A DNA stretch of 64,000 nt from Balneolaceae bacterium. GTDB taxonomy: Bacteria; Bacteroidota; Rhodothermia; Balneolales; Balneolaceae. The stretch covers positions 248,001 through 312,000 of the forward strand of contig JAXHMM010000006.1 in assembly GCA_034521445.1 (NCBI GenBank), read 5' to 3'. Below are positions 20,778-26,702 of the stretch, in pieces (position 1 is the stretch's first letter; every line of letters begins with the position of its first letter). The position numbers and the translations under genes were made by a program. The notes beneath the pieces were generated by a model. The model was given only the letters and a program-made list of their open reading frames with translations, ran no database searches and was not told the DNA's origin.

Positions 20778-22490
20778 ATGAAATATGCATCCAGATTTAT
20801 CCTTGTTGCCGGAATGGCCCTCGCGCTCGGCGCCTGCAGCACCGGCCGTGAAAGCCTTACCGAACCCCCCTCTACAGACGCCGGACCTACCGAACGGCTG
20901 CTCTCCTACCAGGAGCTGATTACCGAGGAATATCTGCGTCCCCGTCTCACCGCCTTTTCCCACGACTCCATGGAGGGGCGCGAGACCGGCACACGCGGGT
21001 TGCGCATGGCCGCTGACTACCTGGCGCGGGAATACCGCGAACTGGGACTCCAGCCGGTGGGAGATAACAACAGCTATTTCCAGCATTTCGAACTCAACGC
21101 CACCCGCACCGACAGTGCCGTTTATGTAGTTCGCGACACCACAGGGTCCCGCGTGCTGAGCCGCTCCGTGGCGGCACCGGGCTCACGTGCTCGTTTTGTA
21201 CCCGCATTCGGGGGAGGAACCGACGTCAGCGGCGAGGTGGTGTTTGCGGGCTTCGGTGTGAATGATCCCGAACGCGGCGTACAGCATCTGGAGGGGGCGA
21301 GCCTGCAGGATAAGTGGGTGATGGTGTACGAAGACATCCCCGGCGTGGTGGAGGGCGACACCCTCCTCAGCCCCGACATCGATTCGCGCTCCCGCTTCAG
21401 ATCGCTTCTGAACGAGGCCGGGGCCCGGGGCGTCCTGCTCATTCCAGGCATGAGCGCAGCTGAGTTTGAGGAGAGTGCCGCCGAAGAGGCGGTCGGCTAC
21501 GGCGAACCGCAGGGCATGCGCCTGGCCTACCGCGACCGGGGTTCGGAGAACGGCAGCATGGGACCTGCCCTGAATGTCGTCCATCCCGTGCTGGCTGCCG
21601 AGATGTTGGGACTGGAGGGCGAGGGCGCCCTCCGGAGCCATCATGACCGGCTCCTGGAGGAGATCGCCGGGTTCCGCGCCCGTCCGACGGGTTACTCCCT
21701 TGAGCAGAACTTCCATACCAGCACGGTCACCGTCCCTACAAAAAATGTGGCAGCTTTCCTGGAGGGCGGGGACCCTGAGCTGAAGGACGAGGTGGTGGTG
21801 CTCACCTCCCACTACGACCACGTGGGCATCGGGCAGCCGGACGAGAACGGCGACCGTATCTACAACGGGGCCGACGACGACGGCAGCGGTACCATCGGGC
21901 TGCTGAATGTGGCCCGGGCCCTGGCCGAGGCACGCGACGACGGACTGCGCCCGCAGCGAAGCATCCTCTTCCTGAATGTGGCGGGCGAAGAGAAAGGCCT
22001 GCTGGGCTCGCGTTACTACTCCGACCATCCCATCTTTCCCATCGAAAAAACCGTCACCAACCTGAATGTGGATATGATTGGCCGGGTTGACCGCCAGCAG
22101 GAAGAACAGGGCGTCTCCGACTACACCTACATAATTGGGGGACGTATCATCTCATCCGACCTTGCGCGTCTGCTGGAGGAGGCCAACGAGCGATCGGGCA
22201 AGCTGGTGCTCAGCGACCGATACAACGATCTGCGGGACCCCAACCAGTTCTACCGGCGCAGCGACCACTGGAATTTCGGCCGCCTGGGCGTGCCCTTCGT
22301 CTTCTTTTTCACGGGTGTTCATGAAGACTATCACCGGCCCTCCGACGAGGTGCACAAGATCCGCTTCGATATGCTTGTCCGGCGCACACAAACCATCTAT
22401 GCCTCGGCCGTGTTGGTGGCCAACAGCGAAGATCCACCGGTGGTGGACAACCAGGAGTTTATAGAGATTACCAGGACGGAGTCTCGCTAG
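20778..22490 (+). CDS. M28-family zinc aminopeptidase lipoprotein
   Basis: A 570-residue exported peptidase. The N-terminus has a lipobox (LALGACST, Cys near residue 20), so it is anchored to a membrane by lipid. A protease-associated insert of about 130 residues (around GEVVFAGFGVNDPERG) precedes the catalytic core. The zinc ligands are visible: LTSHYDHVG (His), NGADDDGSGTIGLLNVARAL (Asp), NVAGEEKGLLGSRYYSDHP (Glu-Glu), NLNVDMIGR (Asp) and HEDYHRPSDE (His). This set is complete for an active co-catalytic di-zinc aminopeptidase. It trims amino acids from peptides outside the cytoplasm. It follows scpA by 15 bases and may be co-transcribed although functionally unrelated. Confidence 0.9.
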   Translation: MKYASRFILVAGMALALGACSTGRESLTEPPSTDAGPTERLLSYQELITEEYLRPRLTAFSHDSMEGRETGTRGLRMAADYLAREYRELGLQPVGDNNSYFQHFELNATRTDSAVYVVRDTTGSRVLSRSVAAPGSRARFVPAFGGGTDVSGEVVFAGFGVNDPERGVQHLEGASLQDKWVMVYEDIPGVVEGDTLLSPDIDSRSRFRSLLNEAGARGVLLIPGMSAAEFEESAAEEAVGYGEPQGMRLAYRDRGSENGSMGPALNVVHPVLAAEMLGLEGEGALRSHHDRLLEEIAGFRARPTGYSLEQNFHTSTVTVPTKNVAAFLEGGDPELKDEVVVLTSHYDHVGIGQPDENGDRIYNGADDDGSGTIGLLNVARALAEARDDGLRPQRSILFLNVAGEEKGLLGSRYYSDHPIFPIEKTVTNLNVDMIGRVDRQQEEQGVSDYTYIIGGRIISSDLARLLEEANERSGKLVLSDRYNDLRDPNQFYRRSDHWNFGRLGVPFVFFFTGVHEDYHRPSDEVHKIRFDMLVRRTQTIYASAVLVANSEDPPVVDNQEFIEITRTESR

Positions 22491-22498
22491 GGTGGCTG

Positions 22499-25450
22499 CT
22501 ACCGCCCGACCGAGATGAATGGCGCCCAGTGTACGGGATGATTCAGCAGGGGGTGATCGATCATGGCCAGCTTGGTTTGCCGCATGGCCTCCGCAGTGGA
22601 TCCGTAGGGAATGGAACGCTCCCAGCCCGCCCAGCGGCCGAAGCGCATCCACAAGGAATGCTCTTCTTCATTCATCTCCGCCAGGTGGCGGTAAAACAGG
22701 GGCATCATGTATGAGGTGGACCGGTCGCCCACGTTCCAGAGGCTCACTACCACAGTGGGCGCCCCGGCGTAGAAAAAAGAGCGCTGCATGCCCAGGATAC
22801 CCTCGCCGCTGACCAGGGGACCCATGCCCGTGTTGCAGGCACTCAGTACCACCATGCGTGTATTCAGCTGCAGCCGGTAGATTTCCGAGCTGCGCAGCAT
22901 GCCGTCGTTGAGGTCGGCCACCTCAAGATCGCCGGCCGTACCCAGGGCCAGTCCGCTCATGGCCGGCTGCTCTTCGTCGATGCGTCCGTGAGTGGCCAGG
23001 TGGATGTAACGGTAGGAGCTGCCCTCCAGACTGTTTTTAACCGCCTCTTCGTTCACCTCGGAGTTTTTAAGGACGGTACTCCTTGGGAAGCGGCTGGCGA
23101 TGGAATCCACCTCTACCAGTGTGGAGGGAAGGGTGCGGAAGACGCTGCTGTTGGCGATGATATCCTGTCCATTTCCCATGCGGCTGAAGTCGGAACCGGC
23201 CACGGCCAGCAGCTGCATCTCGTTCTCTTCGGGTGGGCTTTCCATCAGCTGCAGGCTGGTGACCGAGGGAATGTACTTGAGGGTGTAATCCTGTATCAGG
23301 TATCGTCCGTTGCGGCGCAGCGCCTCGAAGGGCAGGTAGGCAAGGGCTCCGTCGGGAGCCACCATAAGGTGCTCGTAGGTACCCAGAGTCCGGGCGATGG
23401 GATCGACCAGCAACTCAAGCAGCGGCGATGAGAGGCGCTCCAGTTCTTCGGGCGAGGATTCTGCCAGGATGGCATCCCGGAAGCGCTGCACCAGGCCGGT
23501 AAGCAGCCGGCCGGCCCCCTCCTCCCCGCGGCCCAGGGATACCGTGCGAGCAACGGTTTCGTTCCGGCTGACCAAAAAAACGATCAGCCGGTCATCGGCT
23601 ACGGCGTACTCCAGGATGGCGGTGTTGGGGGGGCACAACGCACGGGCCTCGGCCAGGGTGACCGGTTCGGGCGCGTCAAGCCGGCGGTACTGGGTATAGG
23701 TCTGGGCCAGCTCGTTCTGGTAGGCGGACCAGGCGAACTCCGCCTCGCGGACCAGCCCGCTCAGGGAGTCTGTGGCCGCCTCGCCGGAGGCCGTCTCCCG
23801 CTGCAGGTAGAGCTCTTGCAGCCGATCGAGGTGACGGCTGCGTTCCAGGCGCTCCTCTTCTGGAAGCTGCTCGTCGATGCGCAGGGAGGCCTCACGCAGT
23901 TCGTCCGACAGGGTGCGGGCCTTGGAGGCCTCGACCATGCGGTAGGCTTCGGCTGTTGATCCGCCGTGGTCCAGGCTACGTGCGGCCAGGGTCAGGTAAA
24001 AACCCGTATGCTGCCGGAAATAGTCCTGCCGCATCCGGCTGGCCTGGCCCACCTGCTGCCGGGTACGCTCGATAAGCTCCACCGCCATGCGCCCATAATG
24101 AAGCGTGCTGTCGGAGTTCAGCCGGTCGAAGGCATGGGAAAGCCAGCTGAGGGGATGGATGCTCTCGACGATGGGCAGCTCGCGGCTGATCTGCCAGGCG
24201 TTCCGGAACTGCGTACGGGCCTGCCCGAACTCCTCCCGCTCGAAATGCAGGCGCCCGCGCCAGTAGGCTGCCTCGGACCGAAGCCGGGCGAGTCCTGTAG
24301 TGTCCGCCAGGTAGGCCCCCTCCTCGATGTAGATGGCGGCTGGCTGCAGGTTGCCCTGCTGAATGTTTACCTTGGCGAGGTCCCAGTAGGAACTGGCTAC
24401 CAGGTGCGGGTTTCGGGTCTGCCTCCGAAGCTCAAGGGCCTGCTCATAAAGGGAGGTGGCCTCCTCTCTGCGGTCGGTTTTCCACAGCTCATGGGCCATA
24501 TTCTGGTAGGTTTGCGCGGTGCTGCCCGGGGTGGCCCTGTTATCCACCATTTCCAAGCTCTGCCGGTAGTAATCCAGCGCCCGCTGCGGATTGCCCATGC
24601 GCGAATAGAGCACGCCTATATTGCTGAGCGTGGCGCCGGCGCTGAGGGGCTGGCTACCCCGCCGGTGATAGTCCAGCGCCTTCCGGAAGGCAACCAGCGC
24701 CTGGTCGTAGTTGCCCAGCGTCTGCTGAAGGCTGCCCAGGTTGTTGTAGATAGTGCCCAGCTCGTCTTCATCGGCCCCGTAGGCAAGGCGCAGCTGCAGG
24801 CTGCGGTACAGGTGCTCGGCGGCCCGGTCGTAGAGTCCAAGCTGCCTGTAGGCCATGCCCATGTTGTTGAGCGTGTGGGCTACAAAGGAGGAGTCGTCCC
24901 GCTGTGCGTAGAAAACCAGGGCACGGTTGCCGTATTCGATCGCCTTCCGGTACCTGCCGGTGGTCCGGGATGTGGTGCCGAGGGTATTAAAGACCGAACC
25001 CATCATGGTGCTGTCTCCCGAAGCGACGGCCCTTGACAAGGCATTTTCCAGGTGCTGGAAGGCGGAGTCTGGCTGGTTTGTATTCTTGAAAATCTGCGCC
25101 ATGTTCAGGTGAATGGAAGCCCGGCTGTAGTCGGTATGCAGCCATGCCTCCCGCTCCATCAGGGAGCGGAAATGACGCAGGGCCTGCTCGTATTCGTCTC
25201 TCATGGAGAGCACCTGTCCCAGGTAGATACCCGCCTCGAGCCAGAGAGAGCTGTCCTGACGAGGTTGGTACAGCGCAAAGGCGCGTTCGAGGAGGGGCCG
25301 CGCCATTTCAAGATTTCCCTTTCCGTAATACGTCACCCCGCGTTTGTAGAGGCTGTCGGCGGAGAGTCCCTGCTGGGCCTGAAGGCCGGCCGGGAGCATC
25401 AGAAAGGCAAGCAGAACCAGCGTATGTCTGGTGGAGGATCCCGGTTTCAC
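22499..25450 (-). CDS. Exported TPR-CHAT protein (caspase-like protease)
   Basis: A 983-residue protein starting at a GTG with a signal peptide (LMLPAGLQAQ, cut near 26). Residues about 30-450 are tandem TPR repeats (for example AIYNNLGSLQQTLGNYDQALVAF, TLSNIGVLYSRMGNPQRALDYY). A helical linker follows. The CHAT domain occupies about 620-983: YIHLATHG gives the probable catalytic His821, and VVLSACNTG gives Cys872, followed by GEGILGMQRSFFYAGAPTVVVSLWNV. Both catalytic residues are intact, so an active cysteine protease is expected. Export makes the periplasm its likely place. A 37-residue Pro/Asp-rich peptide gene starts divergently 158 bases away. Substrate unknown. Confidence 0.88.
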   Translation of the reverse strand: MKPGSSTRHTLVLLAFLMLPAGLQAQQGLSADSLYKRGVTYYGKGNLEMARPLLERAFALYQPRQDSSLWLEAGIYLGQVLSMRDEYEQALRHFRSLMEREAWLHTDYSRASIHLNMAQIFKNTNQPDSAFQHLENALSRAVASGDSTMMGSVFNTLGTTSRTTGRYRKAIEYGNRALVFYAQRDDSSFVAHTLNNMGMAYRQLGLYDRAAEHLYRSLQLRLAYGADEDELGTIYNNLGSLQQTLGNYDQALVAFRKALDYHRRGSQPLSAGATLSNIGVLYSRMGNPQRALDYYRQSLEMVDNRATPGSTAQTYQNMAHELWKTDRREEATSLYEQALELRRQTRNPHLVASSYWDLAKVNIQQGNLQPAAIYIEEGAYLADTTGLARLRSEAAYWRGRLHFEREEFGQARTQFRNAWQISRELPIVESIHPLSWLSHAFDRLNSDSTLHYGRMAVELIERTRQQVGQASRMRQDYFRQHTGFYLTLAARSLDHGGSTAEAYRMVEASKARTLSDELREASLRIDEQLPEEERLERSRHLDRLQELYLQRETASGEAATDSLSGLVREAEFAWSAYQNELAQTYTQYRRLDAPEPVTLAEARALCPPNTAILEYAVADDRLIVFLVSRNETVARTVSLGRGEEGAGRLLTGLVQRFRDAILAESSPEELERLSSPLLELLVDPIARTLGTYEHLMVAPDGALAYLPFEALRRNGRYLIQDYTLKYIPSVTSLQLMESPPEENEMQLLAVAGSDFSRMGNGQDIIANSSVFRTLPSTLVEVDSIASRFPRSTVLKNSEVNEEAVKNSLEGSSYRYIHLATHGRIDEEQPAMSGLALGTAGDLEVADLNDGMLRSSEIYRLQLNTRMVVLSACNTGMGPLVSGEGILGMQRSFFYAGAPTVVVSLWNVGDRSTSYMMPLFYRHLAEMNEEEHSLWMRFGRWAGWERSIPYGSTAEAMRQTKLAMIDHPLLNHPVHWAPFISVGR

Positions 25451-25607
25451 GTTATATAATGTCCTTTATACTTTGTAAAGAAGATGCAAAAATTTTTGGC
25501 GGCGCGCATATTCTTCTATAATAATGGTCCTACATGCCACGGCTTGCCTTGGCGAAATCGCAAACCAATCCGTTGATATGCTTTCAGAAATGACAGGAGA
25601 ACAGAAA

Positions 25608-25721
25608 ATGCCCGGAATTCGCCTCATGGACAACGGCGACGATCCGCCGCCTCCGCCCCCGCCGCCCGATGATGACGATGATGAAACGGGTTCTGGAGAT
25701 GGCAGCAGCACCGGTGGCTGA
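25608..25721 (+). CDS. Small Pro/Asp/Gly-rich peptide, unknown
   Basis: A 37-codon reading frame with an AGGAGA 7 bases before its ATG, one of the better ribosome sites in this window. The peptide starts MPGIRLMDNGDD, then has eight consecutive prolines, five aspartates and a Gly/Ser-rich tail ending STGG. An upstream in-frame ATG (25524) would make 65 residues but lacks the ribosome site. No signal peptide or membrane helix is apparent, and I recognise no family. The gene is divergent from the CHAT protease and convergent with ftsY. It might be a substrate or signal peptide for that protease, but that is only a guess from position. It could also be a chance frame. Confidence 0.5.
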   Translation: MPGIRLMDNGDDPPPPPPPPDDDDDETGSGDGSSTGG

Positions 25722-25736
25722 GACGGTTCGGCTGCA

Positions 25737-26702
25737 CTAGCCGGGCTCATGCTCTCCGAAGAGGGAGTTAACGAAGAGCTCACGGTCGAAGATCTGCAGA
25801 TCTTCGAGCTGCTCGCCCACCCCAATGTACTTTACGGGCACCTCCAATTCGTTGGAGACACCGATCACGATACCGCCCTTGGCTGTGCCGTCCAGCTTGG
25901 TGAGCACCAGTCCGGTGATATCCACAAAATCGGTGAAGGCCCGGGCTTGCTGCATGGCGTTCTGCCCGGTGGAGGCGTCCAGCACCAGCAGCACTTCGTG
26001 GGGTGCGCCTTCCACCACCTTGCCCATCACCCGCTTGATCTTGGCCAGCTCGTCCATGAGTGACTTCTTGTTGTGCAGGCGTCCGGCGGTATCCACAATG
26101 GCCACGTCGGCCTCGCGCGACCGGGCGGCGGCTACCGAGTCGTAGGCGACGGCGGCGGGGTCGGCGTTCTGTCCCTGCTCGATGAGAGGCACGCCTGCGC
26201 GCTCGCTCCAGATACGCAGCTGGTCCACCGCTGCGGCGCGAAAGGTATCGGCGGCACCCAGCATCACCTTCTTGCCGGCTGCACTGTAGAGGTGGGCGAG
26301 CTTGCCGATGGTAGTGGTCTTGCCCACCCCGTTTACGCCCACCACCATAATCACGTGAGGCGTGGAAGGGAAATCGGCGTCGAAGGCCGCAGGCATATCG
26401 GTGGACTGCTCCCTGAGCAGGGCAATGATCTCCTCACGCAGGATGCGCTGGAGCTCCCCGCTGCCGGTGTATTTGTCGCGTGCCACACGCGCCTCTATGC
26501 GGTCGATGATCTGCACCGTGGTGTTCACGCCCACATCGGAGGTGATCAGCACCTCCTCGAGCTCGTCCAGTACAGCCGCGTCGACGGTGTCCTTGCCGGC
26601 GATGGCGCGTCCCAGCTTCTCCAGCAGGCCGGTACGGCTTTTTTCGGTGCCCTTATCCACTTTTTCCTTTTTGCGAAGGCCTATTTTCTCAAGCAGTCCC
26701 AT
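25737..26702 (-). CDS. ftsY: Signal recognition particle receptor FtsY
   Basis: A 321-residue SRP-type GTPase that docks ribosome-SRP complexes at the inner membrane. The N domain (residues 1-100) contains [19 protein letters not shown]. The G domain has [15 protein letters not shown] (P-loop), [40 protein letters not shown] and [14 protein letters not shown] near the C-terminus. The acidic A domain seen in enterobacterial FtsY is missing, as in many bacteria. The gene upstream on the same strand is a CDP-alcohol phosphatidyltransferase, 14 bases away. Confidence 0.96.

Follow-up and report, generated by a model that had tools for sequence, protein, structure and literature searches.

The 64,000-nucleotide window analyzed here (contig JAXHMM010000006.1 of the Balneolaceae bacterium assembly GCA_034521445.1, positions 248,001 to 312,000 of the forward strand) contains a 37-codon open reading frame that lies head to head with the gene for a predicted exported tetratricopeptide repeat (TPR)-CHAT protease, which we refer to as CHAT1. 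A first-pass annotation of this DNA had proposed this divergent arrangement and placed a peptide gene at 25608 behind an AGGAGA ribosome-binding site; we recovered the same arrangement, coordinates, and 7-base spacing (Table 1), with the signal peptide of CHAT1 predicted from its sequence. The frame encodes MPGIRLMDNGDDPPPPPPPPDDDDDETGSGDGSSTGG, in which a short hydrophobic N-terminus (MPGIRLMDNGDD) is followed by a run of eight prolines, an acidic run, and a Gly/Ser tail. The earlier description of the peptide as having eight prolines and five aspartates holds for the lengths of the two runs but not for the totals, which are nine prolines and nine aspartates. Both runs are written in mixed synonymous codons (CCG CCG CCT CCG CCC CCG CCG CCC and GAT GAT GAC GAT GAT), and neither is a pure triplet repeat. 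The divergent intergenic region contains a single, weak sigma-70-like match (25496-25525, + strand). On its own, a 37-codon open frame is no more than chance; it is the evidence from relatives that takes the window frame beyond chance.

Table 1. Features of the CHAT1 locus, in window coordinates
Feature	Position	Strand	Basis or remark
Peptide gene, 37 aa, leaderless	25608..25721	+	ATG at 25608, stop ends 25721; positional family at 41/41 CHAT1 loci
Shine-Dalgarno sequence AGGAGA	25595..25600	+	7 bases to ATG
Divergent intergenic region between CHAT1 and peptide starts	25451..25607	.	157 bp, head to head
TPR-CHAT protease (CHAT1), 983 aa, GTG start	22499..25450	-	Frame, CHAT domain match, structure model
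Predicted signal peptide, ~residues 1-25	25376..25450	-	Sequence; helix 8-26 has low confidence in model
TPR superhelix, ~residues 31-466, eleven helix pairs	24053..25360	-	Domain search and model
CHAT domain, residues 673-982	22505..23434	-	His821 = 22988-22990; Cys872 = 22835-22837
ftsY-like gene, SRP54 GTPase domain	25737..26702	-	Convergent with peptide gene; conserved neighbor
M28 peptidase	20778..22490	+	Tail to tail with CHAT1

A family of small genes divergent from CHAT1

To follow this frame through the family, we searched 92 Balneolaceae genomes and counted as a CHAT1 ortholog any match to the window CHAT at E ≤ 1e-80. Orthologs were present in 41 genomes (38 of the 66 of good quality), and at all 41 loci a divergent ATG frame of 28 to 49 codons lies upstream of CHAT1; the check in related genomes that the first-pass annotation suggested thus came out positive. 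This count reflects a partly directed search, because the first automated filter missed several peptides and those of L013, L068, L075, and L085 were picked up by reading the frames. We therefore also applied one uniform rule, an ATG frame of 27 to 55 residues with a tail DEGP content of at least 0.4, to real and control sequences alike. It was satisfied at 41 of 41 real loci, on the opposite strand at 1 of 41, and in 3 of 98 other intergenic gaps read on either strand, with 0.33 expected from dinucleotide shuffles. At a DEGP content of at least 0.5, the corresponding figures were 36 of 41 real loci, 1 on the opposite strand, 0 in other gaps, and 0.01 from shuffles.

The family peptides share little letter-for-letter sequence. 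What they have in common is a hydrophobic first part, often with a Phi-x-x-P-D arrangement (Phi, hydrophobic residue), and a second part rich in acidic residues, proline, and glycine. The boundary between the two is the most conserved point, and the acidic tail is conserved in composition and not in sequence. Neither Pfam nor NCBIfam yielded a family match for the 41 peptides (best chance matches, one member each, E = 0.015 in Pfam and 0.39 in NCBIfam), and we found no paper on such a CHAT-adjacent peptide in the open-licence PMC literature. Genes of this kind escape annotation, since profile libraries cope poorly with peptides of such short length and low complexity, and ours were found only by position.

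In the relatives, the small frame behaves as a coding sequence. Among 820 peptide pairs, the 16 closest all had pN below pS (pS, 0.27 to 0.86; pN, 0.10 to 0.29), with substitutions mostly at third codon positions; these pairs are not independent and were aligned as proteins. The synonymous-to-nonsynonymous comparison that had been suggested for this frame thus indicates purifying selection in 16 of 16 pairs of relatives, all from genera other than that of the window, whose copy is in none of them and whose genus has one genome in the comparison set. Shine-Dalgarno (SD) sequences are strong at many peptide loci and weak in most of genus g4, and the SD string aatCAGGAGatcattATG recurs throughout genus g7. 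A terminator-like hairpin follows the peptide stop at 33 of 39 tested loci, compared with 8.3 expected from mononucleotide shuffles. A Bacteroidota-type -7 box (consensus TAnnTTTG) was rejected as the upstream promoter element (1 of 41 loci, 3.7 expected). Separately, an AT-rich conserved element consisting of TTGCA, about 10 bases, and AATATATTGTTTTTT was seen 35 to 60 bases before the peptide ATG in genera g4, g17, and g6 (for example, L012, L078, and L016); it is partly palindromic and is a candidate promoter or operator.

Pairing of the peptide gene with CHAT1

We next asked how closely the peptide gene follows CHAT1. A profile of all 41 peptides (A2) matched frames in 32 of 128 genomes of the order at E ≤ 0.01, and all 32 are CHAT1 carriers; the best match in a CHAT1-free genome in the family scan had E = 0.03 and lay inside a 993-aa frame. 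A further profile (A3) gave 27 matches in 26 of 244 genomes of the class at E ≤ 0.02, all at CHAT1 loci, and at that threshold no peptide gene was found far from any CHAT1 in the 244 genomes. When each genus was left out of the profile in turn, 31 of 44 peptides ranked first against 3418 decoy frames and 34 of 44 ranked within the first five. In a tree of 61 CHAT rows, all 41 peptide-bearing CHAT1 rows fell into one group (SH-aLRT, 99). The presence of the peptide requires two changes on this tree, the second being G053, a long branch of unsure place.

The ftsY-like gene is a conserved neighbor that is not thought to belong to the peptide-CHAT1 pair. At 17 mapped CHAT1 loci, the gene downstream of the peptide was ftsY (13 loci), a second CHAT gene, CHAT2 (3 loci), or another gene (1 locus), and it was convergent with the peptide gene in every case. 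Although ftsY is not a neighbor in G017, the peptide is still found beside CHAT1 there. At the tandem loci of G006, G011, and G024 (L034, L035, and L036), CHAT2 (~1030 aa, His/Cys dyad kept) is inserted between ftsY and CHAT1, and the peptide goes with CHAT1. No peptide was found beside the CHAT2 genes or beside the CHAT genes of genus g24, although these lie next to ftsY themselves. A peptide that merely resides in the gap between ftsY and a CHAT gene, a neighborhood that is conserved in itself, would have been expected to follow ftsY; we consider such an unrelated small protein improbable.

A class-wide search of the 244 genomes with a CHAT1 profile led to G124, a genome of another family in which two contigs each hold one full CHAT1-type gene; a third copy is truncated by a contig end. 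Neither full gene is next to ftsY, and each has its own divergent peptide gene carrying the P-D motif, with a convergent gene downstream, as in the window. Within a third family, a 47-aa peptide occupies the same place by CHAT1 in G051, and G053 has matching first 23 codons and conserved upstream bases before a masked stretch. The G124, G051, and G053 peptides were found by looking where they were expected. In G053 (L048), the masked bases 1250-1297 interrupt the probable peptide gene right after DPDTEE.

Collectively, the 41 of 41 loci, the co-duplication in G124, and the absence beside CHAT paralogs at ftsY loci bear out that the small frame is a real gene paired with a CHAT protease. We consider it almost certain that the frame belongs to a genuine gene family, and its product is probably a dedicated partner of CHAT1.

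The predicted protease and models for the function of its partner

The CHAT domain of CHAT1 (PF12770) scored 217 bits, with a cut-off of 24. His817, His821, and Cys872 are identical in all 41 orthologs, so the His/Cys pair is intact, as had been noted; the choice of the catalytic histidine between His817 and His821, both present, is our assumption. The CHAT1 N-terminus has a hydrophobic stretch followed by AQ/Q, and a crude signal-peptidase pattern is found in 37 of 41 orthologs. The best 11-residue hydrophobicity averages 2.73 in CHAT1 N-termini (lowest, 2.00) and -0.09 in the peptides (highest, 1.92). By these sequence criteria, the peptide has no signal peptide and CHAT1 carries a predicted Sec signal.

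A structure model of CHAT1 (18-row alignment; pLDDT, 81) comprised eleven TPR helix pairs and a caspase-fold C-terminus. Its best match was Csx29 (7y9x_B; Z, 28.9; root mean square deviation [RMSD], 8.2; 578 residues aligned), and separase-securin structures also matched (7nj1, Z 22.1, RMSD 14.9, 768 aligned; 5u1s, Z 22.4, RMSD 12.4, 676 aligned). The TPR part matched the peptide-binding TPRs of LGN, KLC, PlcR, and Rap, and a sequence search with this part retrieved the same kinds of peptide-binding TPRs. The model also matched the anti-sigma factor DdvA (Z, 20.9; RMSD, 9.6; 583 aligned). Such fold matches by themselves reveal no function of CHAT1. With a CHAT domain, a His/Cys pair, and a Csx29-like fold, CHAT1 has the features of a TPR-CHAT protein (separase-like, clan CD), and its protease activity is predicted only.

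Separase and caspases have bacterial relatives in the CHAT proteases, for which very few physiological partners have been described. Here, a peptide of ~36 residues, inherited and duplicated strictly together with its CHAT gene, is a candidate for a specific partner of an exported clade. In our best explanation, which as a whole has a probability of about 0.4, the small-protein gene is independently transcribed and forms a two-gene unit with this clade. Its product is a leaderless peptide, predicted to be disordered, with a hydrophobic N-terminal motif, typically Phi-x-x-Pro-Asp, and an acidic/Pro/Gly tail. It would bind CHAT1 by laying the motif into the peptide-binding TPR superhelix, the catalytic groove, or both; most likely it would help the protease fold and, as a pseudosubstrate, inhibit it in the cytosol until export. 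Securin on separase and staphostatins on secreted cysteine proteases are precedents for such a mechanism. Inhibition in itself, as opposed to a substrate or ligand role, falls somewhat short of an even chance; partnership is likely, and among the possible roles we favor an inhibitor by a small margin over a substrate or a ligand. With a Sec signal predicted for the protease and none for the peptide, an inhibitor seems at least as likely as the substrate, activator, or signal suggested by the first-pass annotation.

Human securin is described as having a pseudosubstrate, EIEKFFP, and an LPE docking motif, and yeast Scc1 as having LPD (PMC6858450); the securin pseudosubstrate places a hydrophobic residue and a proline at the scissile bond (PMC6858450, PMC10317155). 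As in separase-securin, a protease combining TPR-like helices with a caspase fold would have a disordered partner, which in 17 of 41 peptides, but not in the window copy, shows a motif that may resemble the hydrophobic-Pro pseudosubstrate or the LPE/LPD docking site. The Phi-P-D element of the peptides would fit either a securin-type site, pseudosubstrate or docking. However, securin is much longer than the 28- to 49-residue peptides and shares the compartment of separase, whereas CHAT1 is predicted to be exported, and the likeness between the motifs covers few residues and could reflect convergence or chance. The finding nonetheless raises the question of whether securin-type disordered pseudosubstrate partners exist in bacteria.

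Staphostatins are ~100 aa in size. Staphopain-staphostatin and SpeB-Spi each pair an exported cysteine protease with an adjacent small inhibitor that guards the cell (PMC2873492), and a leaderless small partner encoded beside the protease is what staphostatin and our peptide would share. Staphostatin is, however, folded, lipocalin-like, and co-transcribed, whereas the family peptides, at 28 to 49 residues with a low-complexity tail, are predicted to be disordered and are encoded divergently, and their protease belongs to a different clan. RRNPP systems (Rap-Phr and PlcR-PapR) likewise have a TPR protein and a short peptide encoded alongside, and their TPR folds match CHAT1. In those systems the cell exports the peptide and retains the TPR protein in the cytosol; here the compartments would be reversed, which sets the pair apart from RRNPP. 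HetF of Anabaena is a membrane-associated CHAT-TPR protein that, unlike CHAT1, has its CHAT domain at the N-terminus and a transmembrane segment, and the text consulted on it (PMC8406250) mentions no small divergent peptide.

Several observations weigh against an inhibitor paired with CHAT1, or against the place of the window copy in the family. Nineteen aligned non-CHAT1 CHAT proteins (a count without G053 and without the other CHAT of the window genome) have an intact dyad and an N-terminus that by eye looks mostly exported, and no peptide was seen beside them (the G035 sequence begins at a contig end); since such paralogs exist, exported CHATs generally need no inhibitor of this type. Loss of the dyad in peptide-free CHATs was rejected as an explanation, since His and Cys are kept in 21 of 21 other aligned sequences, these two now included. 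A model in which a basic CHAT1 binds the acidic tail was not supported: CHAT1 net charges are not consistently positive, and a simple charge match fails because the charge of the TPR part ranges from -34 to +24 among orthologs. The gene is divergent and has its own terminator in most relatives, unlike the operon of staphostatin. The strict motif [LIMVF]P[DE] occurs in 17 of 41 peptides (shuffle mean, 4.5; maximum, 12), a significance that the shuffles overstate because the peptide rows are related; the pattern is short and absent from the other 24, among them the window copy. The leave-one-genus-out profiles failed to recognize the peptides of the window and G051, either peptide of G124, any of the three g11 peptides, and three g4 peptides. 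No terminator-like hairpin was found after the window stop, and the window copy is the least typical and weakest member of the set. Because a profile built without it misses it, it was assigned by position, size, composition, ribosome-binding site, and a local likeness to the G080 peptide (DNGDDPPPP in the window, DNGNDPPPP in G080).

The missed profile match and the missing motif and terminator would suit an open frame that arose by chance in the window, an artifact independent of what is true of the relatives, and its genus offered no second genome for comparison. Its position, orientation, length range, SD sequence, and tail composition are nevertheless those of the 40 other CHAT1 loci, and together with the G080 likeness and the mixed codons of its Pro and Asp runs they leave this reading very improbable. 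Just as improbable is a leader peptide or ribosome-stalling upstream frame that regulates the downstream gene. Runs of proline and aspartate, which stall or destabilize ribosomes, occur in the window and in g6 and g11 relatives; long proline runs are missing in most relatives, however, many of the genes end in a terminator-like hairpin, and a leader peptide or operon partner was rejected because the downstream gene is convergent at every mapped locus. A ribosomally synthesized and post-translationally modified peptide (RiPP) precursor was rejected because no modifying enzymes were present among the neighbors scanned by Pfam.

Two further readings keep the partnership and change its purpose, and we regard each as unlikely, though far from negligible. 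If the peptide were a dedicated substrate, CHAT1 would cleave it, with the Phi-P-D boundary as the probable region of the cut, and one of the products, the acidic tail or the N-terminal piece, would act as a signal or effector. CHAT proteases act on dedicated neighbors: Csx29 cuts Csx30, a folded 565-aa substrate (PMC10028731), and the proposed cut would fall at the most conserved point of the peptides. Against this, a Sec signal on the enzyme and none on the peptide make a simple protease-substrate pair less straightforward, as contact between the two would be limited to the cytosol before CHAT1 is exported or to lysed cells; most proteases cut poorly where proline directly follows the hydrophobic residue, and the tail is conserved in composition only. 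The resemblance to Craspase (type III-E CRISPR) extends to the closest solved fold and a dedicated partner, probable in our case, encoded nearby, whereas CHAT1 has a predicted signal peptide and Csx30 is larger and folded. A Craspase/CRISPR locus was rejected, as Pfam scans of ten window and nine L047 neighbors showed no Cas gene; these scans did not include a genome-wide search for Cas7-11.

Alternatively, the peptide could activate CHAT1 as a ligand or serve as an alarm signal: after synthesis in the cytosol, it would reach the periplasmic TPR-CHAT of its own or neighboring cells, for example, after lysis, bind the TPR groove, and switch the protease on. Peptide receptors (LGN, KLC, PlcR-PapR, and Rap) rank among the top structural hits for the TPR part, and separate expression signals with a leaderless, soluble, disordered product would fit a stored signal. 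Asn, which is typical of certain helix-A positions in peptide-binding TPRs, is the commonest residue at one such position in several repeats (156, 196, 277, and 317); such Asn residues are, however, widespread in TPR_12-type repeats, and no export or uptake route was identified for the peptide. In a specific two-compartment form, every cell would hold the leaderless peptide in its cytosol and CHAT1 as a periplasmic receptor-protease, so that lysis of kin would switch the protease on (or off, if the peptide inhibits). This form is improbable; were it true, every CHAT1 would sense the fast-diverging peptide of its own pair.

CHAT genes elsewhere

We also looked at CHAT genes beyond these loci. 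At 59 CHAT loci (L111-L169), a strict composition-plus-SD filter found no similar divergent peptide outside Balneolaceae, a weak negative because, of the 7 Balneolaceae CHAT1 loci that the set contained, this filter picked up no more than 3. None of five class-level CHAT relatives (G158, G208, G216, G222, and G230) had the peptide, and none was seen for the CHAT gene of G042. An Acidobacteriota contig (L122) contains a 31-aa Asp/Glu/Gly/Pro frame with an SD sequence, 3' of and convergent with a CHAT gene, which may be chance in GC-rich DNA.

CHAT relatives of the window genome carry the names Fodinibius, Aliifodinibius, Gracilimonas, and Balneola, which places this genome with Balneolaceae. 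CHAT2 loci, like the window, have a frame similar in size and orientation to that of the M28 peptidase. The second CHAT protein of the window genome (L002, C5:400770-404597) has a C-terminal transmembrane segment and is adjoined, on the minus strand, by a protein of 243 aa that has a single transmembrane segment and a start that, by eye, resembles an anti-sigma factor.

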